The position numbers and the translations under genes are program-made. DNA of 64,000 nucleotides from positions 3,360,079-3,424,078 of the forward strand of contig NZ_CP045920.1 of the NCBI RefSeq assembly GCF_009660225.1, in the 5' to 3' direction. The DNA comes from Pseudactinotalea sp. HY158 (GTDB lineage: Bacteria; Actinomycetota; Actinomycetes; Actinomycetales; Beutenbergiaceae). The first letter of the stretch is position 1. Every line of letters starts with the position of its first letter. Positions 20,142 to 62,945 of the stretch are shown piece by piece. The notes below the pieces were generated by a model. The model made no database searches and had not been told where the DNA came from. It was given only the letters and a program-made list of their open reading frames with translations.

Positions 20142-20336
20142 CCGGCCGCGACAAGCCCCCGTGCTCGACGCTGCGCCACCTGCGCCCATCCACGGCCGCC
20201 CGCCCGATCCATCGGCCGGCCCGGCCACTCACGCCGACCACCCACGCCCGGCCACCCACACGGGGCCGTCCACGCCCGGCCACCCACGCGGGGCGCGCCC
20301 GCCCACGGCGGCCGAGCTGCGTCGTCCCCACGCATT
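20142..20336. other. non-coding spacer with CGGCCACCCAC repeats
   Basis: Several imperfect copies of CACGCCCGGCCACCCAC lie between 20222 and 20300. No gene or promoter is supported. Confidence 0.5.
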
Positions 20337-23299: not shown

Positions 23300-24508
23300 G
23301 TGCCCATCGCCATCCTGGCTCTTGCCCTGGGATCCTTCGGGATCGGCACCACCGAGTTCGTGATCATGGGCATGTTGCCCCAGGTGGGCGGAGATCTCGG
23401 CGTGGACGTGGCGACCGCCGGGCAGTACGTGTCCAGCTATGCGATCGGTGTGGTCGTCGGGGCGCCGCTGTTGACTGCCGCCACGGTGCGCCTTCCGCGC
23501 CGCTGGACGCTCGTCGGACTGCTCGGACTCTTCGTAGTGGGCAATCTGCTTTCCGCGCTCGCGCCCGGGCACCTGGCGTTGCTGGCCACCCGCTTCCTCA
23601 CCGGTCTGCCGCACGGCGCGTTCTTCGGGGTGGCGGTGTTGGTGGCGGCCTCGCTCGTCGGCCCGCACCGGCGGGGCCGGGCGATGGCGACGGTGCTGCT
23701 CGGGCTGAGCGTCGCGAACGTCGTCGGCGTGCCGTCCGGCACGTACATCGCCCAGCAGTTCGGGTGGCGGTGGACCTTCGGGGCGATCGCGTTGATCGGT
23801 CTGGCGGCGATGACGGTAGTGGCGGCGTTCGCGCCGCGCCAGGACCCCGCCGCCGCCTCAACGGGGTCGATCCGTGCCGAGCTCGGCGCGTTTGCCAGGC
23901 CGCAGGTGCTGCTGACGCTGGCCGTCGTCGTCTTCGGCCTCGGGGGCCTGTTCGCCAGCTACAGCTACGTGGCCCCGATGCTCACCGCCGTCACCGGCCT
24001 GGCCGATTCCACCGTGCCCTGGGTGCTCGTGCTCGTGGGGATCGGGATGACCGCCGGATCCCTCGTCGGGGGACGGCTGGCCGACCTCTCCACCCTGGGC
24101 ACGCTGGCGGCCGGGCTGGCGCTCGTCGTGGCCGTGCTGCTGGGACTCGCGGTGTTCCTCGCCAGCGCACCCGCCGCGATCGCGCTGCTGTTCCTGCTGG
24201 GCTTCGCGAGCCTGGGGATGGGGCCGGCGATCCAAATGCGTGTCATCGACCACGCCGGCGGGGCCCCGACCATCGTCTCGGCCGGCGTGCAGTCGGCGTT
24301 CAACATGGCCAATACGATCGGCGCCTGGCTGGGCGGAGCCGTGATCGCCGCCGGTGCCGGACTGCGCGCCCCGAACGTCGTCGGCGCCGCGCTCGCGCTG
24401 ACCGGGCTGCTGTTCCTCGCCGGCTCCGCAGTGCTCGAGATCCGCGAGCGCCGGACGACGGCCGCCCGGGTGGCGGCGGGCGGGCAGCAGCCGGTGCCGG
24501 TGGGATAG
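23300..24508 (+). CDS. MFS transporter, DHA1-type exporter
   Basis: A 402-residue membrane protein with 12 predicted helices, of the major facilitator DHA1 group (AraJ/CmlR-like). The opening ALALGSFGIGTTEFVIMGMLPQ, with the TEF motif, and GLPHGAFFGVA in helix 5 are typical of proton-coupled drug or sugar efflux pumps. GTG 23300 lies 8 nt after GAGGAG and is preferred over the in-frame ATG at 23282, which has no ribosome-binding site. Directly after the stop lies a partial copy of the dispersed GGCGAGCGGGC element. Confidence 0.9.
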   Translation: MPIAILALALGSFGIGTTEFVIMGMLPQVGGDLGVDVATAGQYVSSYAIGVVVGAPLLTAATVRLPRRWTLVGLLGLFVVGNLLSALAPGHLALLATRFLTGLPHGAFFGVAVLVAASLVGPHRRGRAMATVLLGLSVANVVGVPSGTYIAQQFGWRWTFGAIALIGLAAMTVVAAFAPRQDPAAASTGSIRAELGAFARPQVLLTLAVVVFGLGGLFASYSYVAPMLTAVTGLADSTVPWVLVLVGIGMTAGSLVGGRLADLSTLGTLAAGLALVVAVLLGLAVFLASAPAAIALLFLLGFASLGMGPAIQMRVIDHAGGAPTIVSAGVQSAFNMANTIGAWLGGAVIAAGAGLRAPNVVGAALALTGLLFLAGSAVLEIRERRTTAARVAAGGQQPVPVG

Positions 24509-24679
24509 CGGCGAGCGGGCTGCGCGAGATCGGCGCCATACCCGCGACTGCTCGCCCGGGGCTGCCCACCCGGGGCTGCCCACCCGGAATGCGCTTGGCC
24601 GGCCCTCGCTCGCCGGCGGCGACGAGACCGGTGCGAGGAGCACGAGCAGCCCCAGCGGCCGGGGCCGAGTTGTGGTCGG

Positions 24680-25249
24680 CTACTGCGGTTCGAGGCCCAG
24701 GTCGTCGGCGGAGAGCAGCCACACGTACGGCAGTCCGGCGTCGGCGAAGACCTCGCGGGCGCCGGTGTCGCGGTCGACGATCGTGGCCACGCCGATCACC
24801 TCGGCGCCGGCGCGACGGGCCGCCTCGACGGCGAGCATGATCGAGCCGCCCGTGGTCGAGGTGTCCTCGAGGATGACGACGCACCGCCCGGCGACGTCCG
24901 GGCCCTCGACCTGGCGTCGCATCCCGTGCCCCTTGGACTCCTTGCGCACGAGGAACGCATCGAGGGCGAGGCCGCGGCTCGCGGCGGCGTGCTGCACGGC
25001 GGCCACGACCGGATCGGCGCCCATCGTCGGCCCACCGACCGCCTCCGCCTCACCCACTCCGAGCCCGGCCTCCTCGAGCTTGTCGAGCAGCAGGTGCCCG
25101 ATGAGCGGGGCGGCCTCGTGGTGCAGGGTCACGCGGCGCAGGTCGACGTAGTAGTCCGCCTCCCGCCCGCTCGAGAGCGTGACCCGGCCGCGCACCACGG
25201 CCAGTTCGTTCACGAGGTCGGCCAGCCGGCTCAGCGTGTCAGTGTTCAC
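24680..25249 (-). CDS. pyrE: orotate phosphoribosyltransferase
   Basis: Transfers ribose phosphate from PRPP to orotate, the penultimate step in UMP synthesis. The 189-residue product has the family's compact length. The PRPP loop is VVILEDTSTTGGS, and FLVRKESKGHGMRRQVEGP supplies the flexible catalytic lysine loop. GTG 25249 begins the conserved N-terminus; the frame runs open into the upstream repeats only because they lack stops. It diverges from the exonuclease gene across a tandem 62-bp array. Confidence 0.93.
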   Translation of the reverse strand: MNTDTLSRLADLVNELAVVRGRVTLSSGREADYYVDLRRVTLHHEAAPLIGHLLLDKLEEAGLGVGEAEAVGGPTMGADPVVAAVQHAAASRGLALDAFLVRKESKGHGMRRQVEGPDVAGRCVVILEDTSTTGGSIMLAVEAARRAGAEVIGVATIVDRDTGAREVFADAGLPYVWLLSADDLGLEPQ

Positions 25250-25651
25250 CCCGGCAGGGTATCGAATCCTCGGCGTCCCGACGGATTCGGGGAACATTCC
25301 CGGCGCGGTGCACCAGAGAGCTTCCCCAGCCCCCGCTCTCACCGGCTGCGGGGAACATTCCCGGGGCGGTGCACCAGAGAGCTTCCCCAGCCCCACGCCC
25401 ACACCGGCCGCGGGGAACATTCCCAGGGCAGCACACCAAGTAGTATCCCCGGCCCCACGCCACACCGCCCGCGGGGAGCATTCCCGGGGCAGCACACCAG
25501 AGAGCTTCCCCAGCCCCACACTCTCACCGGCTGCGGGGAACATTCCCGGGGCGGTGCACCGGAGAGTCTCCCCAGCGCCCCGCCTGCTGCGGAGGGCGCT
25601 GCCTCGGTGATCGGGAGGCGAGCTGCGCCGTCCATAGGTAGGTTGGCGGGC
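25250..25651. other. 402-nt divergent spacer between pyrE and xth
   Basis: It consists almost wholly of the five-unit 62-bp array (25288-25590), followed by one dispersed GGCGAGCTGCGCCGTCCATA element (25618-25637) directly before the exonuclease start. Promoters for both divergent genes must lie within or between these repeats; none is clear. Confidence 0.6.
25288..25590. repeat. five tandem 61-62-bp repeats between pyrE and xth
   Basis: Units start at 25288, 25349, 25411, 25472 and 25534, each with CGGGGAACATTCCC. A conserved block of about 46 nt, including the palindrome GGGAACATTCCC, GGTGCACCAGAGAGC and TTCCCCAGCCCC, is followed by a less conserved stretch of about 16 nt. GGGGAA and TTCCCC can pair within a unit. 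Related 62-bp units lie at 62807-62930. Confidence 0.85.
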
Positions 25652-26425
25652 ATGAGGATCGCGACCTGGAACGTCAACTCCATCCGCGCCCGGGCCGAGC
25701 GGGTCGCCGCGTGGCTCGAGGCGAGCGACGTCGACGTGCTGGCGATCCAGGAGACCAAGTGCTCGGTCGAGCAGTTCCCGGCGCTCCCGTTCGAGGCGCT
25801 CGGCTACGAGGTGGTCGCGGCCGGCTACCACCAGTGGAACGGGGTGGCGATCTGCTCCCGGGTGGGTATGGACGACGTCGCCGCGGGCTTCGCGGGCCAG
25901 CCCGCCTTCGGGGCGCCCGAGCCCCGGCTCGAGGCCCGCGCGCTCGGCGCGACGTGCGGCGGGGTACGGGTGTGGAGCATGTACGTGCCGAACGGGCGGT
26001 CACTGTCGGATCCGCATTACGACTACAAGCTGGCCTGGCTGCGGGCACTCGCGAGCGAGGCCGGCGGCTGGACCGGCGAGCCGACCCTCCTGCTCGGGGA
26101 CTGGAACGTGGCGCCGCGCGACGAGGACGTGTGGGACGTGGAGGTCTTCGCCGGGGCGACCCACGTGTCCGAGCCGGAGCGGGAGGCCCTCGCCGGGCTC
26201 GAGCGGGCGGGGTTCAGCGAGATCACCCGCGCCCACACCGCCGGGCAGTACACGTACTGGGATTATCAGCGCCTCGCGTTCCCGAAGAACAACGGCATGC
26301 GGATCGACCTGGCCTTCGCCAACCCGCCCGCGGCCGCCCGGGTGACGTCCGCGTGGATCGACCGCGACGAGCGCAAGGGCAAGGGCGCCTCGGACCACGT
26401 GCCGGTCGTGGTCGAACTCGACTGA
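25652..26425 (+). CDS. xth: exodeoxyribonuclease III
   Basis: A 257-residue exonuclease/AP endonuclease of the EEP superfamily, acting in base-excision repair. Motifs: MRIATWNVNSIRAR (catalytic Asn), QETKC (metal-binding Glu), MYVPNGRS, GDWNVAP (Asp and Asn) and the terminal SDHVPVVVE (Asp-His). ATG 25652 is the conserved start. It is preceded by the dispersed repeat at 25618-25637. Confidence 0.95.
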   Translation: MRIATWNVNSIRARAERVAAWLEASDVDVLAIQETKCSVEQFPALPFEALGYEVVAAGYHQWNGVAICSRVGMDDVAAGFAGQPAFGAPEPRLEARALGATCGGVRVWSMYVPNGRSLSDPHYDYKLAWLRALASEAGGWTGEPTLLLGDWNVAPRDEDVWDVEVFAGATHVSEPEREALAGLERAGFSEITRAHTAGQYTYWDYQRLAFPKNNGMRIDLAFANPPAAARVTSAWIDRDERKGKGASDHVPVVVELD

Positions 26426-26543
26426 CGCCCGGGCCGGATCGTCCGCGAAATCCCACACCGGGGCGGCGCTTGCCGGTACGGTTTGCCCACTGACGCCTCG
26501 GGCCCTGGCCGGCGGTGTCCGCCACGCAAGCAAGGGAACACGA

Positions 26544-28073
26544 ATGAGTCAGCGACAGCAGTTCAAGGGGCGCAGCGCGTTCATCTTCGCGGCGATCGGC
26601 TCCGCGGTGGGACTGGGAAACATCTGGCGCTTCCCGTACGTCGCCTACGAGGGCGGCGGCGGCGCATTCATCATCCCGTACCTTACGGCGCTCCTGACCG
26701 CGGGCATCCCACTGCTCTTCCTGCTCTACGCGATCGGCCACAAGTACCGCGGGTCGGCGCCGCTGAGCTTTCGGCGGATGAGCCGGGGCACCGAGGTGAT
26801 CGGGTGGTGGCAGGTCGGGATCTCGTTCGTCATCGCCGTGTACTACGCGGTGGTCATCGCGTGGGCGATCCGTTACGTCGGCTTCTCGGCGAACCAGGCG
26901 TGGGGCGACGACACGGTGTCGTTCTTCGTCGACGACTTCCTCCAGCAGAGCGGCGACTTCGGGATGGGCGGCGGCTGGGTCGTGGCCGTCGGGGTGCCGC
27001 TCATCATCGTGTGGGTCTTCACCCTCGTGGTCATGCGGGCCGGGATCCAGAGCGGGATCGCGCGGCTCTCCCAGGTGTTCATCCCGCTGCTCGTGGCGAT
27101 CTTCATCCTCCTCGTGATCCAGGCGCTGCGGCAGCCGGGGGCGGCGGAGGGTCTCAACGCCCTGTTCACGCCGAATTGGGCGGCGCTCAAGGACAGCAGC
27201 GTGTGGGTCGCGGCCTACGGCCAGATCTTCTTCTCCCTCTCGATCGCGTTCGGCATCATGATCACCTACGCCGCCCACCTCAAGCGCAATACGAACCTCA
27301 CGGGTTCGGGCCTGGTCGTCGCCTTCGCGAACTCCGGCTTCGAGCTGCTCGCCGGGATCGGCGTGTTCTCGGCGCTCGGGTTCATGGCCCAGGCGCAGGG
27401 CGTGCAGGTCGCCGAGGTGGTCGAGAGCGGGATCGGGCTCGCGTTCTTCGCATTCCCGCAGATCGTCTCCACGATGCCGGGCGGGGCGGTGTTCGGCGTG
27501 CTGTTCTTCGTCTCGCTCGTGCTCGCCGGGATCACCTCGCTCGTGAGCATCGTCGAGGTCGTGATCGACGCGTTCGAGGACAAGTTCAACCTCAACCGCA
27601 CGGCGTCCGTCGCGCTCATCGGTGGGCTCATGGCGGTCGTGTCGATCCTGCTGTTCCCCACGGCCACGGGCCTCAACCTGCTCGACGTGACCGATCACTT
27701 CGCGAACTCGTTCGGGATCGTCGGGGCCGGGCTCACGATCGTGATCCTGCTCAGCTGGGGGCTCCGCCGGCTGCGGGTCATGAGCGCCCACCTGAACGAG
27801 GTCTCATCCTTCAAGGTCGGCACGACCTGGATGGTGCTCCTCACCGTGATCACGCCGCTCATCCTCGGGTTCATGTTCATCAGCGAACTCGTGGACACCA
27901 TCCAGAACGGCTACGGCGAGCCCGCGATGCCGAGCTGGTACGTCAACACCTTCGGCTGGGGCATGAGCATCGGGCTCATCGTCATCGCATTCATCCTCGC
28001 CGCCCTCCCGTGGCGACGGGGTGTGGTCGAGGCCGAAACCTACGAACTGAGCCAGAAGGGAGCGAACCGATGA
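26544..28073 (+). CDS. NSS-family sodium-dependent amino-acid transporter (MetP-like)
   Basis: A 509-residue neurotransmitter:sodium symporter with 11-12 helices. The helix-1 sodium/substrate motif IGSAVGLGNIWRFPYVAYEGGGGAF is textbook NSS. The gene overlaps by 4 nt a 47-residue small membrane protein, the arrangement of the Corynebacterium MetPS methionine/alanine importer. ATG 26544 follows AAGGGA. Methionine and alanine are the likely substrates by analogy. Confidence 0.93.
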   Translation: MSQRQQFKGRSAFIFAAIGSAVGLGNIWRFPYVAYEGGGGAFIIPYLTALLTAGIPLLFLLYAIGHKYRGSAPLSFRRMSRGTEVIGWWQVGISFVIAVYYAVVIAWAIRYVGFSANQAWGDDTVSFFVDDFLQQSGDFGMGGGWVVAVGVPLIIVWVFTLVVMRAGIQSGIARLSQVFIPLLVAIFILLVIQALRQPGAAEGLNALFTPNWAALKDSSVWVAAYGQIFFSLSIAFGIMITYAAHLKRNTNLTGSGLVVAFANSGFELLAGIGVFSALGFMAQAQGVQVAEVVESGIGLAFFAFPQIVSTMPGGAVFGVLFFVSLVLAGITSLVSIVEVVIDAFEDKFNLNRTASVALIGGLMAVVSILLFPTATGLNLLDVTDHFANSFGIVGAGLTIVILLSWGLRRLRVMSAHLNEVSSFKVGTTWMVLLTVITPLILGFMFISELVDTIQNGYGEPAMPSWYVNTFGWGMSIGLIVIAFILAALPWRRGVVEAETYELSQKGANR

Positions 28074-38341: not shown

Positions 38342-41300
38342 GCCGACACCCGCCTTCTGCGGATCGTGACGATGCCGGCACCCAGGATCAGCAGGGCCAA
38401 CGCCGAGACTCCCAGCTGGAGGGCGCCCTCATTCACTCCCGTCGACGGCAGCGTGCCCGTCGTGACGGTTGCACTGTCCGCGGCGTCGACCACATCGCCC
38501 GAGGGCGGAGTGCCCGTGACGGTCGCGTGATTGACGACCGTACCGGAGAGCACGTCGGCCTCCGTCAGCGTGTAGGTCGCCGTGGCCGTGACGGACTCGC
38601 CCGGAGCCAGCACACCCTCACCGGTCGCAGCCGACCAGTCATAGGACAGCTCGGACAGGCCCGCCAACGGATCGCTGATCTGCACATCCGAGAGCGTGAC
38701 GTTCCCGCTGTTCGTCGCGGTGAAGGAGTAGGTGACGACATCACCCACGTTGCCCTCACCCGCGAGGTCGGCGTCCTTGACCAGCGTGATCGCCGACGCC
38801 GGGTCGACCGTGGGAACCGTGACCTCGTCCTCGACGGGAGGAAGCGGCGCCGGCGGATTCTCCGGATCGACCGTCGGCGGAGTGCCCGTGGCCGAGGCGA
38901 CGTTGTGCACGCTGCCCGCATCCATATCCGCCTGCGTCAACGTGTACGTCGCCGTCGCGGTGACCGACTCACCAGGCGCCAACACACCCTCACCGGTCGC
39001 GGCCGACCAGTCATAGGACAGCTCCGACAGACCCGCCAACGGATCCGTGATCGCCACATCCGAGAGCGTGACATTCCCGGCATTCGTCGCGGTGAAGGAG
39101 TAGGTGACGACGTCGCCCACGTTGCCCTCACCCGCGAGGTCGGCGTCCTTGACCAGCGTGATCGCCGGCGCCGGATCCGTGGTCGGAACCGTGGCCGGGT
39201 CCTCGTCCTCGACCGGATCGGAGGGAATCGGCGTGCCCGGATCCTCCGGATCGAACGTCGGCGGCGGCGTACCCGCAGCCGTCGCCACGTTCACGACACT
39301 GCCCGCATCCACATCCGCCTGCGTCAACGTGTACGTCGCCGTCGCCGTGACCGACTCACCCGGAGCCAACACACCCTCACCGGTCACAGCCGACCAGTCA
39401 TAGGACAGCTCCGACAGACCCGCCAACGGATCCGTAATCACGACGTCGGTCAGAGTCACGTTCCCCGCATTCGACGCGGTGAAGGAGTAGGTGACGACGT
39501 CGCCCACGTTGCCCTGGCCCGCGAGGTCGGCGTCCTTGACCAGCGTGATCGCCGGCGCCGGATCCGTGGTCGGAACCGTGGCCGGGTCCTCATCCTCGAC
39601 CGGATCGGAGGGAATCGGCGTGCCCGGATCCTCCGGATCGAACGTCGGCGGCGGCGTACCCGCGGCCGTCGCCACGTTCACGACACTGCCCGCATCCACA
39701 TCCGCCTGCGTCAGCGTGTACGTCGCCGTCGCGGTGACCGACTCACCCGGAGCCAGCACACCCTCACCGGTCGCGGCCGACCAGTCATAGGTCAGCTCGG
39801 ACAGGCCCGCCAGCGGATCCGTGATCGCGACGTCGGTCAGGGTCACGTTCCCGCTGTTCGTCGCGGTGAAGGAGTAGGTGACGACATCGCCGACGCCATT
39901 CCCATCGGTGGTCTCGCCCGACTTGACCAGCGTGATCGCCGGGGCCGGGTCGACCGTGGGAACCGTGGCCGGGTCCTCGTCCTCGACCGGATCGGAGGGA
40001 ATCGGCGTGCCCGGGTCCTCCGGATCGAACGTCGGCGGCGGCGTCCCCGCGGCCGTCGCCACGTTCACGACACTGCCCGCATCCACATCCGCCTGCGTGA
40101 GCGTGTAGGTCGCCGTCGCGGTGACCGACTCACCCGGAGCCAGCACACCCTCACCGGTCGCGGCCGACCAGTCATAGGACAGCTCCGACAGACCCGCCAA
40201 CGGATCGCTGATCGCCACATCCGAGAGCGTGACGTTCCCGCTGTTCGTCGCGGTGAACGAATACGTCACGACATCGCCGACGCCATTCCCGTCGGTGGTC
40301 TCACCCGACTTCACCAGCGTGATCGCCGGGGCCGGGTCGACCGTGGGAACCGTGGCCGGGTCCTCGTCCTCGACCGGATCGGAGGGAATCGGCGTGCCCG
40401 GGTCCTCCGGATCGAACGTCGGCGGCGGCGTACCCGCGGCCGTCGCCAGGTTCACGACACTGCCCGCATCCACATCCGCCTGCGTGAGCGTGTACGTCGC
40501 CGTCGCGGTGACCGACTCGCCCGGTGCCAGCACGCCCTCGCCGGTCGCGGCGGACCAGTCATAGGTCAGCTCGGACAGGCCCGCCAGCGGATCCGTGATC
40601 GCGACGTCGGTCAGGGTCACGTTCCCCGCATTCGTCGCGGTGAAGGAGTAGGTGACGACATCGCCGACGCCATTCCCGTCGGTGGTCTCACCCGACTTGA
40701 CCAGCGTGATCGCCGGGGCCGGGTCGACCGTGGGAACCGTGGCCGGGTCCTCGTCCTCGACCGGATCGGAGGGAATCGGCGTGCCCGGGTCCTCCGGATC
40801 GAACGTCGGCGGCGGCGTACCCGCGGCCGTCGCCAGGTTCACGACACTGCCCGCATCCACATCCGCCTGCGTGAGCGTGTAGGTCGCCGTCGCGGTGACG
40901 GACTCGCCCGGTGCCAGCACGCCCTCGCCGGTCGCGGCGGACCAGTCATAGGTCAGCTCGGACAGGCCCGCCAGCGGATCGCTGATCTGCACATCCGACA
41001 GGGTCACGTTCCCGGCATTCGTCGCGGTGAAGGAGTAGGTGATGACGTCACCCACGTTGCCCTGGCCCGCGAGGTCGGCGTCCTTGACCAGCGTGATCGC
41101 CGGGGCCGGGTCGACCGTGGGAACCGTGACCTCGTCCTCGACCGGAGGAAGCGGCTCATCGCTACCCGGCGGAGTGCCCGTGGCCGAGGCGACGTTGTGC
41201 ACGCTGCCCGCATCCACATCCGCCTGCGTCAGCGTGTACGTCGCCGTCGCGGTGACGGACTCACCCGGAGCCAGCACACCCTCGCCGGTCGCGGCCGACC

Positions 41301-44300
41301 AGTCATAGGACAGCTCCGACAGGCCCGCCAACGGATCCGTGATCACGACGTCAGTCAGGGTCACGTTCCCGCTGTTCGTCGCGGTGAAGGAGTAGGTGAC
41401 GACGTCGCCCACGTTGCCCTGGCCCGCGAGGTCGGCGTCCTTGACCAGCGTGATCGCCGGCGCCGGATCCGTCGTGGGAACCGTGGCCGGGTCCTCGTCC
41501 TCGACCGGATCGGAGGGAATCGGCGTGCCCGGATCCTCCGGATCGAACGTCGGCGGCGGCGTACCCGCGGCCGAGGCCACGTTCACGACACTGCCCGCAT
41601 CCACATCCGCCTGCGTCAGCGTGTACGTCGCCGTCGCCGTGACCGACTCACCCGGAGCCAGCACACCCTCACCGGTCGCGGCCGACCAGTCATAGGTCAG
41701 CTCCGACAGGCCCGCCAGCGGATCCGTGATCGCGACGTCGGTCAGGGTCACGTTCCCGGCATTCGTCGCGGTGAACGAATACGTCACGACATCGCCGACG
41801 CCATTCCCATCGGTGGTCTCACCCGACTTGACCAGCGTGATCGCCGGGGCCGGGTCGACCGTGGGAACCGTGGCCGGGTCCTCGTCCTCGACCGGATCGG
41901 AGGGAATCGGCGTCTCCGGGTCCTCCGGATCGAACGTCGGCGGCGGCGTACCCGCGGCCGTCGCCACGTTCACGACACTGCCCGCATCCACATCCGCCTG
42001 CGTGAGCGTGTAGGTCGCGGTGGCCGTGACCGACTCACCCGGAGCCAACACACCCTCGCCCGTCGCGGCCGACCAGTCATAGGACAGCTCCGACAGACCC
42101 GCCAACGGATCCGTGATCGCCACATCCGAGAGCGTGACATTCCCGGCATTCGTCGCGGTGAACGAATACGTCACGACATCGCCGACGCCATTCCCATCGG
42201 TGGTCTCACCCGACTTCACCAGCGTGATCGCCGGCGCCGGGTCGACCGTGGGAACCGTGACCTCGTCCTCGACGGGAGGAAGCGGCTCATCGCTACCCGG
42301 CGGGGTGCCCGTGGCCGAGGCGACGTTGTGCACGCTGCCCGCATCCACATCCGCCTGCGTCAACGTGTACGTCGCCGTCGCGGTGACCGACTCACCCGGA
42401 GCCAGCACACCCTCACCGGTCGCGGCCGACCAGTCATAGGCGAGCTCGGACAGACCCGCCAGCGGATCCGTGATCACGACGTCGGTCAGGGTCACGTTCC
42501 CCGCATTCGTCGCGGTGAAGGAGTAGGTGACGACGTCGCCCACGTTGCCCTGGCCCGCGAGGTCGGCGTCCTTGACCAGCGTGATCGCCGGCGCCGGATC
42601 CGTCGTGGGAACCGTGGCCGGGTCCTCGTCCTCGACCGGATCGGAGGGAATCGGCGTGCCCGGGTCCTCCGGATCGAGCGTCGGCGGCGGCGTACCCGCG
42701 GCCGTCGCCACGTTCACGACACTGCCCGCATCCACATCCGCCTGCGTCAGCGTGTACGTCGCGGTGGCCGTGACGGACTCGCCCGGTGCCAGCACGCCCT
42801 CACCGGTCGCAGCGGACCAGTCATAGGACAGCTCCGACAGACCCGCCAACGGATCCGTGATCGCCACATCCGACAGGGTCACGTTCCCGCTGTTCGTCGC
42901 GGTGAACGAATACGTCACGACATCGCCGACGCCATTCCCATCGGTGGTCTCACCCGACTTCACCAGCGTGATCGCCGGGGCCGGGTCGACCGTGGGAACC
43001 GTGACCTCGTCCTCGACCGGAGGAAGCGGCTCATCGCTACCCGGCGGAGTGCCCGTGGCCGAGGCGACGTTGTGCACGCTGCCCGCATCCACATCCGCCT
43101 GCGTCAACGTGTACGTCGCCGTCGCGGTGACCGACTCACCCGGAGCCAGCACACCCTCACCGGTCGCGGCCGACCAGTCATAGGCGAGCTCGGACAGGCC
43201 CGCCAACGGATCCGTGATCGCCACGTCGGTCAGGGTCACGTTCCCCGCATTCGTCGCGGTGAAGGAGTAGGTGACGACGTCGCCCACGTTGCCCTGGCCC
43301 GCGAGGTCGGCGTCCTTGACCAGCGTGATCGCCGGCGCCGGATCCGTCGTGGGAACCGTGGCCGGGTCCTCGTCCTCGACCGGATCGGAGGGAATCGGCG
43401 TGCCCGGATCCTCCGGATCGAACGTCGGCGGCGGCGTACCCGCAGCCGTCGCCACGTTCACGACACTGCCCGCATCCACATCCGCCTGCGTCAGCGTGTA
43501 CGTCGCCGTCGCGCTGACGGACTCACCCGGAGCCAACACACCCTCACCGGTCGCGGCCGACCAGTCATAGGACAGCTCCGACAGACCCGCCAACGGATCC
43601 GTGATCGCGACGTCGGTCAGGGTCACGTTCCCCGCATTCGTCGCGGTGAAGGAGTAGGTGACGACGTCGCCGACGCCATTCCCATCGGTGGTCTCACCCG
43701 ACTTGATCAGCGTGATCGCCGGCTGCTGGTCGAGGGGGACGGAGGCCGTGTCCGTGTCGTCCACGTCGGGTCCGGACGGCGGCGTGCCGACGACCGTGGC
43801 GGTGTTGTCGATCGATCCCGCATCGACGTGTTCCTGGGTGACGATCAAGGTCGCCGTCGCCGTCACCGTCTCCCCCGGCGCCAGCTCACCGGGCGCGCCC
43901 GGCCAGTCGGAATAGGTGAGGGTCGACAGCCCCGGCAACGGGTCGCTGATGTCGACCCCGGTGAGGAGCACGTTGCCCGTGTTCTCGGCGGCGAAAGTGT
44001 AGGTGACCGTGTCCCCGACGACGAGCGCGCCACCGTCGGAGACGGTCTTCGTCAGCGCGATCGACGGCGCGTGCGCCTCGTTGGTGATCGTGCACACGAC
44101 GTCGGCACCGGCCAGCGCGGAGGGTTGGGTGACGGTCCAGGACGGCGCCTCGCCGCTCGTGCTCACCGTGCCTTCGGTGGCTGCGTCGACACAGGAGATC
44201 GTGCTGATGTAACCGGCGAGGTCGGCGCCGCCGGCGGCCGCTTCGGAGAGCGTGAACTCGTCTCCGGGCTGAGCGAAGAACGCGCCGACGGTCTCGGCCT

Positions 44301-50254: not shown

Positions 50255-51517
50255 GTGAACGCACCCCGCTTCGGAGTCAACTACACCCCCCGCTCGGGCT
50301 GGTTCCATCACTGGCTCGACTTCGACGCCGCCGAGGTCCGGGCGGACCTCGAGGTGATCGCCGCGCTCGGTATGGATCACGTGCGGATCTTCCCCATCTG
50401 GCCGTACGTGCAGCCCAATCGCACCCTCATCCGCCCGCGCGCCCTCGATCAGCTCGCGGAGGTCGTGACGATCGCCGGTGAGGCGGGCCTCGACGTGAGC
50501 GTCGACGGCATCCAGGGCCACCTGTCCAGTTTCGACTTCCTGCCGGCGTGGACCCAGACGTGGCACCGGGCGTCGATGTTCTCCGATCCGGTGGTGATCT
50601 CCGGGCTCGCCGCCTATCTCGAGGCGATCGCGGGGCGGCTCGCGGACCTGCCGAACTTCCTCGGCATGAGCCTGGGGAACGAGGTGAGTCAGTTCTCCTC
50701 GACCGAGCATCCCGAGCCGCACATGGCGACCCCGGCCCACGCCCACGCGTGGGCCGAGCGGATGCTCGCGGCGTGCGAGGCGGGCGCGCCCGGCAGGGAG
50801 CACCAGATCTCCGAGTACGACCGGGCCTGGTTCTCCTCGGACCATCCGTTCACGCCGGCGATGGCGGCCCGGCTCGGGTCGGCGACCACCATCCACTCGT
50901 GGGTCTTCAACGGCACGGCCGCCCGGTACGGCAACCTGTCCGAGGAGAGCGTGCGCCTGGCCGAGTACCTCATCGAGCTCGGCCGGGGCTGGGCCACCGA
51001 CCCGGCGCGGCCGATCTGGCTGCAGGAGATCGGGGCGCCGATGCCGCCGCTCGCGGCGGACCAGCCCGTGGAGTTCCTCGAGCGCAGCCTCGCCCACGCC
51101 CTCGACACCGAGCGGCTGTGGGGCGTGACCTGGTGGTGCTCCCACGACGTCTCCCGCGAGCTCGCGGACTTCCCGGCGCTCGAGTACGACCTCGGGCTCA
51201 TCGACTCGCAGAACCGGGTCAAGCCGGTCGGGCGCGCGTTCGCGGCGGCCGCGGCCACCGCCCGGAAGCAGGCCGCGGTCCCGGCCCCCCGCAGCACCGC
51301 CGTCGTGCTCGACGTGCCCGACCTGGAGCCGGGGGCCGGGTACAGCGCGAACGGGCGGGAGGTCTGCGCCCCCGGCGGGGAGTTCTTCGAGGCGTGGATG
51401 CGGCTGGCGATCGCGGGCGGGCGGCCCACGGCCGTGCTCGCTTCGCGTGTGGACGACGCAGCTCACCTCGCGCAGCGAGGCATCACCGAGGTGGTCCACC
51501 CGGCCGACCTCGGCTGA
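50255..51517 (+). CDS. GH5-type beta-mannosidase (GH5_18-like)
   Basis: A 420-residue (beta/alpha)8 glycosidase. The N-terminus FGVNYTPRSGWFHHWLDFD, the acid/base Glu in SLGNEVSQF and the nucleophile Glu in WLQEIGAP are arranged as in GH5 subfamily 18 enzymes, which cleave the Man-beta-1,4-GlcNAc left after N-glycan demannosylation. There is no signal peptide. GTG 50255 lies 8 nt after GAGGAG. The pairing with GH125 mirrors N-glycan utilisation loci of bifidobacteria. Subfamily is inferred from motifs only. Confidence 0.8.
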   Translation: MNAPRFGVNYTPRSGWFHHWLDFDAAEVRADLEVIAALGMDHVRIFPIWPYVQPNRTLIRPRALDQLAEVVTIAGEAGLDVSVDGIQGHLSSFDFLPAWTQTWHRASMFSDPVVISGLAAYLEAIAGRLADLPNFLGMSLGNEVSQFSSTEHPEPHMATPAHAHAWAERMLAACEAGAPGREHQISEYDRAWFSSDHPFTPAMAARLGSATTIHSWVFNGTAARYGNLSEESVRLAEYLIELGRGWATDPARPIWLQEIGAPMPPLAADQPVEFLERSLAHALDTERLWGVTWWCSHDVSRELADFPALEYDLGLIDSQNRVKPVGRAFAAAAATARKQAAVPAPRSTAVVLDVPDLEPGAGYSANGREVCAPGGEFFEAWMRLAIAGGRPTAVLASRVDDAAHLAQRGITEVVHPADLG

Positions 51518-62806: not shown

Positions 62807-62945
62807 CCCGACCTGGGTCCCCTGGATCCGACCCCACAGGGTCGAGACTCCCCAGCCCCACTCGAGTGCCCGACCTGGGTCCCCTCGACCCGACGGGACA
62901 GGGGTGAGACTCCCCAGCCCTGGGTGGCCGGTGGCCGGTGGCCGG
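62807..62945. repeat. two 62-bp repeats and a GGTGGCC tract
   Basis: Units begin CCCGACCTGGGTCCCCT at 62807 and 62869 (period 62), each ending with GAGACTCCCCAGCCC, which resembles the GAGCTTCCCCAGCCCC block of the pyrE-xth array. They are followed by four GGTGGCC units (about 62921-62948). Non-coding. Confidence 0.75.

Follow-up and report, generated by a model that had tools for sequence, protein, structure and literature searches.

REP-type palindromes of bacteria are usually explained by the tags at their ends and by RAYT transposases; a RAYT, which is a Y1 transposase, is expected for REPs of the GTAG super-family, while CGTC REPs are without one. The MIRUs of mycobacteria are intergenic minisatellite loci, a single family scattered over an actinobacterial chromosome, and they overlap start and stop codons. 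In the account given in the main text of PMC3733652, REP elements of the GTAG and CGTC super-families, known from Proteobacteria and others, are palindromes of 20-40 bp that occur as scattered singles and as tandem clusters carrying flanking DNA, some of them intragenic, and that mostly occupy convergent or codirectional gaps adjoining 3' ends. That main text describes REPs mainly outside Actinobacteria, the word Actinobacteria being missing from it (PMC3733652). REP copy number is given as often above 100 per genome in PMC2817692, and scattered non-coding satellites that belong to a single family within a genome are outlined for Leptospira and others in PMC6749651.

The array described here belongs to a family that shares several of these features. 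Its core of 39 bp falls within the REP palindrome range as set out in PMC3733652, its loci likewise favor convergent and codirectional gaps near 3' ends (eight of each, the present array being the exception), and one of its arrays overlaps an open reading frame. The family counts 60 cores (E<=0.01), compared with the figure of often more than 100 quoted from PMC2817692. Inspection of the flanks of the listed cores revealed neither GTAG or CGTC nor any other constant tetranucleotide beside them, and a search for the Y1 transposase domain (PF01797) gave no match in the host genome, while the control search was positive in five of 14 named genomes. Because the GTAG/CGTC tag and the Y1 transposase are both lacking, the family is REP-like and not a REP; it differs further in its actinobacterial-type host and its helically spaced, head-to-tail arrays. 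Compared by description rather than by sequence, the family resembles MIRUs as a set of intergenic minisatellite loci over an actinobacterial chromosome, and is distinguished by a unit built on a 39-bp dyad. Enterobacterial BIMEs are also regular arrays of palindromic units, but the present units mostly keep one orientation, with a hint of alternation at a single locus, L121 (loci are cited by our own labels). The Leptospira-type satellites share the scattered, non-coding, one-family character yet conserve the full unit (PMC6749651), whereas the present family conserves one dyad core among unrelated spacers. Within the literature searched, parts of papers included, we recognised no description of this 39-bp dyad family, and an earlier one is possible.

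The array between the pyrE-like and xth-like genes

The window (the whole stretch of 64,000 nucleotides that was analysed) carries the array between two divergent genes, a pyrE-like phosphoribosyltransferase gene on the minus strand (24680-25249; PF00156, E 1.5e-8), for which the name pyrE is a reading suggested by its sequence, and an xth-like exodeoxyribonuclease gene on the plus strand (25652-26425; Exo_endo_phos PF03372, E 4.4e-30), both with their 5' ends towards it. An earlier note had reported five tandem repeats of about 62 bp at this place, and this was confirmed. Tandem Repeats Finder delimits the array at 25288-25583 with a period of 62, 4.8 copies, 84% matches and a score of 394, and unit alignment resolves it into five 61/62-bp units that start at 25288, 25349, 25411, 25472 and 25534 (spacings of 61, 62, 61 and 62). 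The two gene starts are 402 bp apart, and the array fills 296 bp of this distance. Each unit consists of a 39-bp dyad core, GGGG...CCCC, and a spacer of 22 or 23 bp; the cores lie on the plus strand at 25289-25327, 25350-25388, 25412-25450, 25473-25511 and 25535-25573, with weight-matrix scores of 37.5, 38.9, 28.5, 34.5 and 38.1, respectively, the third being the most diverged. The description of the unit as conserved blocks plus a variable segment held in part: GGGAACATTCCC is intact in four of the five units (unit 4 reads GGGAGCATTCCC) and GAGAGCTTCCCCAGCCCC in three (units 1, 2 and 4), but the variable segment proved to be a spacer local to the array and not a variable cassette.

The exact pattern CYTCCCCAGCCC has three matches in the genome, none outside the window array, and matches to CCCAG-N-CCCCAGCCC are no commoner in the genome than those to the reversed control. 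As a DNA query against 59 genomes the array returned just short chance matches outside its own genome, and blastn against plasmids gave coding matches only, the array not being matched among the matches listed. Searching named genomes for Xth left 80 loci, the best at 53-66% identity and none from a close relative of the host. In the host's taxonomic family, 23 members with xth were available; pyrE lay within the fetched flank in 18 and was adjacent and divergent in 15. The pyrE-xth gap of these 15, measured by hand from alignments, is 45-194 bp, and no tandem array of period at least 25 occurs in any of them. Since the host's own gap without the array is 106 bp, inside that range, the array is probably a gain of this lineage.

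Two other kinds of repeat were observed in the window. One is a motif unrelated to the array but likewise dispersed, GAGCTGYGYCGTCCATA, with GAGGCGAGCTGCGTCGTCCATACGC as its wider consensus, which lies at 25620-25636 and again at about 20314-20330 and 51448-51464; it has 73 genome matches at up to two mismatches against one for the reversed pattern, and when 20 of its loci were checked, nine fell inside called genes and 11 between genes. Positions 38551-43723 hold two long blocks of a 387-bp tandem repeat, 6.7 copies each, in phase with a coding repeat length.

A genome-wide family with a 39-bp core

A DNA search of the host genome detected a second array, L002, whose five 60-bp units fill a convergent gene gap, and alignment of the ten units from both arrays exposed a common core. 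A covariance model made of these ten units only (R1) recovered four further loci at E<=0.01 together with many weaker, clustered matches. Its successor (R2; 24 units from 15 loci) reports 60 cores at 17 loci of the genome at E<=0.01, two of these loci being outside the training set; a weak site at 213562 (E 0.027) stands outside the 17 loci and is included in the 18-locus sets used for folding and consensus. Array sizes range from two to seven units. The earlier note had envisaged a family of mobile or amplifying intergenic units and had named, as what would speak against it, two loci being the only ones in the genome and not conserved in relatives. An amplifying family of mostly intergenic units is borne out by the 60 cores and 17 loci; mobility is not, there being no Y1 transposase in the genome. 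Conservation in relatives is lacking as far as was searched: with R2, 395 other genomes from the order yielded no match at E<=1e-4, the filters being so strict that just 16 matches came from the host genome itself. At E<=0.01, 58 relatives yielded one weak match (G009, E 0.006), a perfect hairpin of 39 bp with a gene on either side, which was rejected as a family member and taken as an ordinary hairpin; the samples of relatives hold no second species of the genus. A family with a fixed dyad core, local amplification and restriction to the lineage is well supported.

The kinship of two units at 62.8 kb, which the earlier note had regarded as related, fared differently. Two 62-bp units are present (62810-62925, with 39-bp spans at 62815-62853 and 62877-62915), and they have in common with the window array a GGG...CCCC span of 39 bp, the 62-bp period and CTCCCCAGCCC. 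They are not among the matches of R2 at E<=10, and the family weight matrix ranks them only 46th and 269th of 63,962 window positions. The link to the window array is therefore statistically unsupported, and the pair was rejected as proven kin, its membership of the family being unproven.

The locus-weighted consensus of the core, GGGGAAACTCGCCGGTGCGGGGCACCAGCGAGTTTCCCC, is a 39-bp dyad. Nearly all units run from GGGG to CCCC over exactly 39 bp, ends that are partly ascertained; the exceptions are L121, which has cores of 34 nt, and a single L125 unit shortened by 1 bp. As an unbiased test, which supports the fixed span, the pattern GGGGAA-N15..45-TTCCCC has 23 matches in the genome, 18 of which (from nine family loci) span 39 bp while the other five all differ, and the reversed pattern has two. 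Conservation along the core is mirror-symmetric (Spearman 0.87 for information content, on rounded values), and at A5, T9, A31 and T35 the bases themselves are kept and not exchanged in pairs. In a set of 49 units from 15 loci, with one L125 row off register by one base and one carrying the 1-bp deletion, the left arm of a unit has no better pairing with its own right arm than arms combined across arrays have (12.34 versus 12.29 of 18, p 0.43). Real units likewise fold no better than chimeras (-16.61 versus -16.67 kcal/mol, with the units corrected; this set and the consensus set omit the L121 units of 34 nt and a number of identical repeats), and a count of pairs in the first ten units, from the window and L002, gives no covariation either. 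Conserved bases without covariation point to symmetry of the kind expected where a symmetric protein binds, and not to a stem preserved through compensatory substitution. Since the arms do not covary, maintenance of an RNA hairpin was rejected as the chief constraint.

Within arrays the core is about as diverged as the spacer (means of 0.150 and 0.166; core lower in five of 11 sets, p 0.76, with L121, L127, L129 and the deleted L125 unit omitted and L124 split in two), a comparison that fails to show selection on the core; T9 and C26 are invariant within arrays across the 11 sets. Spacers range from 21 to 53 bp. Units are alike within an array, and spacer interiors from different arrays show no similarity in excess of shuffles (p 0.10 for seven of 33 bp, p 0.43 for five of 23 bp), while full spacers including their ends do (p 0.002 and 0.03). 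As the interiors look unrelated between arrays, each array was, judging from these sequences, probably amplified in place together with local flanking DNA.

The periods fall into clusters of 60-62 bp (window, L002, L126, L128 and the 62.8-kb pair), 71-73 bp (L122, L123, L125, L127, L129, L133 and L162) and 92 bp, L124 alternating between 72 and 92 bp; the clusters are about one helical turn apart. A post hoc Rayleigh circular test at 10.5 bp, which leans mainly on two period clusters and runs on 14 arrays with L163 absent, gave p 6e-5 (p 1.6e-4 when the 62.8-kb pair is left aside). Two observations speak against phasing: scanned over pitches, the signal peaks at 5.3 bp and has just a second maximum near 10.75, and L121, at 73-78 bp, is out of phase with helical turns. 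A degenerate neighbor of the L163 unit, detected afterwards, is spaced from it by exactly 62 bp (28 of 39 identical, the next best shift reaching 19). Most loci have multiplied their own copy, apparently in step with turns of the helix. At L121 (genome positions 1505440-1505861) 39-nt and 34-nt cores alternate with a double period of 154 bp, and for three of its six units, those with the shorter cores and the last one, the minus strand gives the higher score by 5-7 bits, which is the hint of alternating orientation mentioned above.

Genomic context and competing readings

Gene contexts rest on our own gene finder; most neighbors are backed by Pfam matches, the gene upstream of L134 excepted. 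The 17 loci divide into eight convergent, eight codirectional and one divergent. Convergent examples are rbpA with a 6-phosphogluconolactonase-type gene, purB with DUF2330 (L126 being the array at the purB 3' end) and NUDIX with CtaA; leuA exemplifies the codirectional ones, and all eight codirectional arrays are closer to the upstream stop than to the downstream start. The divergent promoter position, in which the earlier note had seen a clue to the family, is thus the exception, held by the window array alone. Gaps of at least 60 bp in the window comprise six convergent, 14 codirectional and nine divergent, and the family loci set against them for convergent versus divergent position differ with a Fisher p of 0.024 one-sided and 0.033 two-sided. 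Two further contexts were observed: a three-unit array of 72-bp period within L133 (932-2179 of the locus, 1396731-1397978 of the genome) is read in frame at the C-terminal end of an ABC transporter permease reading frame, where it makes up a repetitive tail, and at L127 (3001000-3007400) two integrase-core (rve) transposase genes enclose two cores, with a third core about 2.8 kb off.

Several explanations can be set against these results. Placement suits a series of tandem bidirectional terminators or stabilisers of mRNA 3' ends, in which transcribed cores would form hairpins and serial copies would halt polymerase from both sides: eight loci are convergent and eight sit just past stop codons, and the consensus dyad can pair over 18 bp around a 3-nt loop. 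RNA folding relative to shuffles is strong in several arrays (z of -8.7 and -6.5 in L126, -7.6 in L133, -6.5 in L163, -5.8 in L124 and -5.6 in L127b), the singleton-type L163 unit is a near-perfect hairpin of -25.6 kcal/mol, and in the three of 17 loci scanned terminator-like sites exceed expectation in both non-window arrays, L126 (two, 0.6 expected) and L002 (three, 0.4 expected). The window array, however, lies upstream of both of its genes, has no such site and folds unremarkably (z of -2.0 and -2.4), as do L122, L123 and the 62.8-kb pair; the sense strand folds better in six of nine codirectional loci, weak L164 included, which is non-significant. Neither a fixed length nor fixed bases are required of a terminator, and the arms here pair and fold equally well with foreign partners. 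As a general account we consider termination rather unlikely. With strong folds in some arrays and terminator-like sites in two of them, a 3'-end RNA role may nevertheless exist, and a regulatory or RNA function as suggested in the earlier note is conceivable.

Functionless minisatellites, in which an old palindrome was dispersed by chance and slipped where slippage did no harm, would reduce the period clusters and the 3' bias to tolerance and chance. The equal divergence of core and spacer, the array read into the permease gene as a repetitive tail, the absence of the family from the relatives searched and the avoidance of promoters, the window excepted, all agree with this. It accounts poorly for a 39-bp span in 18 of 23 matches despite spacers of 21 to 53 bp, for the invariance of T9 and C26 in 11 sets and for periods one turn apart though spacers are unrelated between arrays, and we judge it unlikely. 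A CRISPR array was rejected and has a negligible probability: the 61/62-bp period and the pairing of a repeated with a more variable part recall one, but the conserved part of 39-46 bp is quasi-palindromic, spacers within one array resemble each other (mean divergence 0.166), and Rfam returned no match at E<=1 in 24000-27000.

A REP-like dyad and its possible reading

The explanation that we favor, tentatively and at a little short of even confidence, is a lineage-specific, REP-like dyad that amplifies in tandem and is read mainly as DNA. The element proper would be the 39-bp core of fixed length, of which the window array represents one locus among 17. Single cores would have been dispersed over the chromosome by a route that the model leaves unspecified, and at most sites a core with its local flank would then have been duplicated head to tail into arrays. 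Copies would persist mainly where promoters and genes stay unbroken, in convergent gaps and just past stop codons; the window array would have entered a divergent gap, of which 106 bp remain, and forced pyrE and xth apart. The core may be read chiefly in double-stranded form, as the target of a protein with two-fold symmetry, and adjacent cores would be held on the same face of the helix. The computations show the family itself, the constant length of its core, the dyad symmetry, amplification in place, the bias towards 3' ends and the absence from the relatives sampled; binding by a protein, helical phasing as a selected trait and the spread of copies are what we infer. A more specific version, in which a dedicated symmetric protein coats the cores on one DNA face to form insulator or topology nodes between transcription units, selection setting the period to whole turns and leaving spacer sequence free, seems to us quite doubtful.

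The arrays of the family would offer 15 candidate length-variable markers for strain typing. An untagged, Y1-free family of one lineage, with a fixed dyad and periods stepping by about one turn, would also provide a test of whether a bound protein can space tandem arrays.
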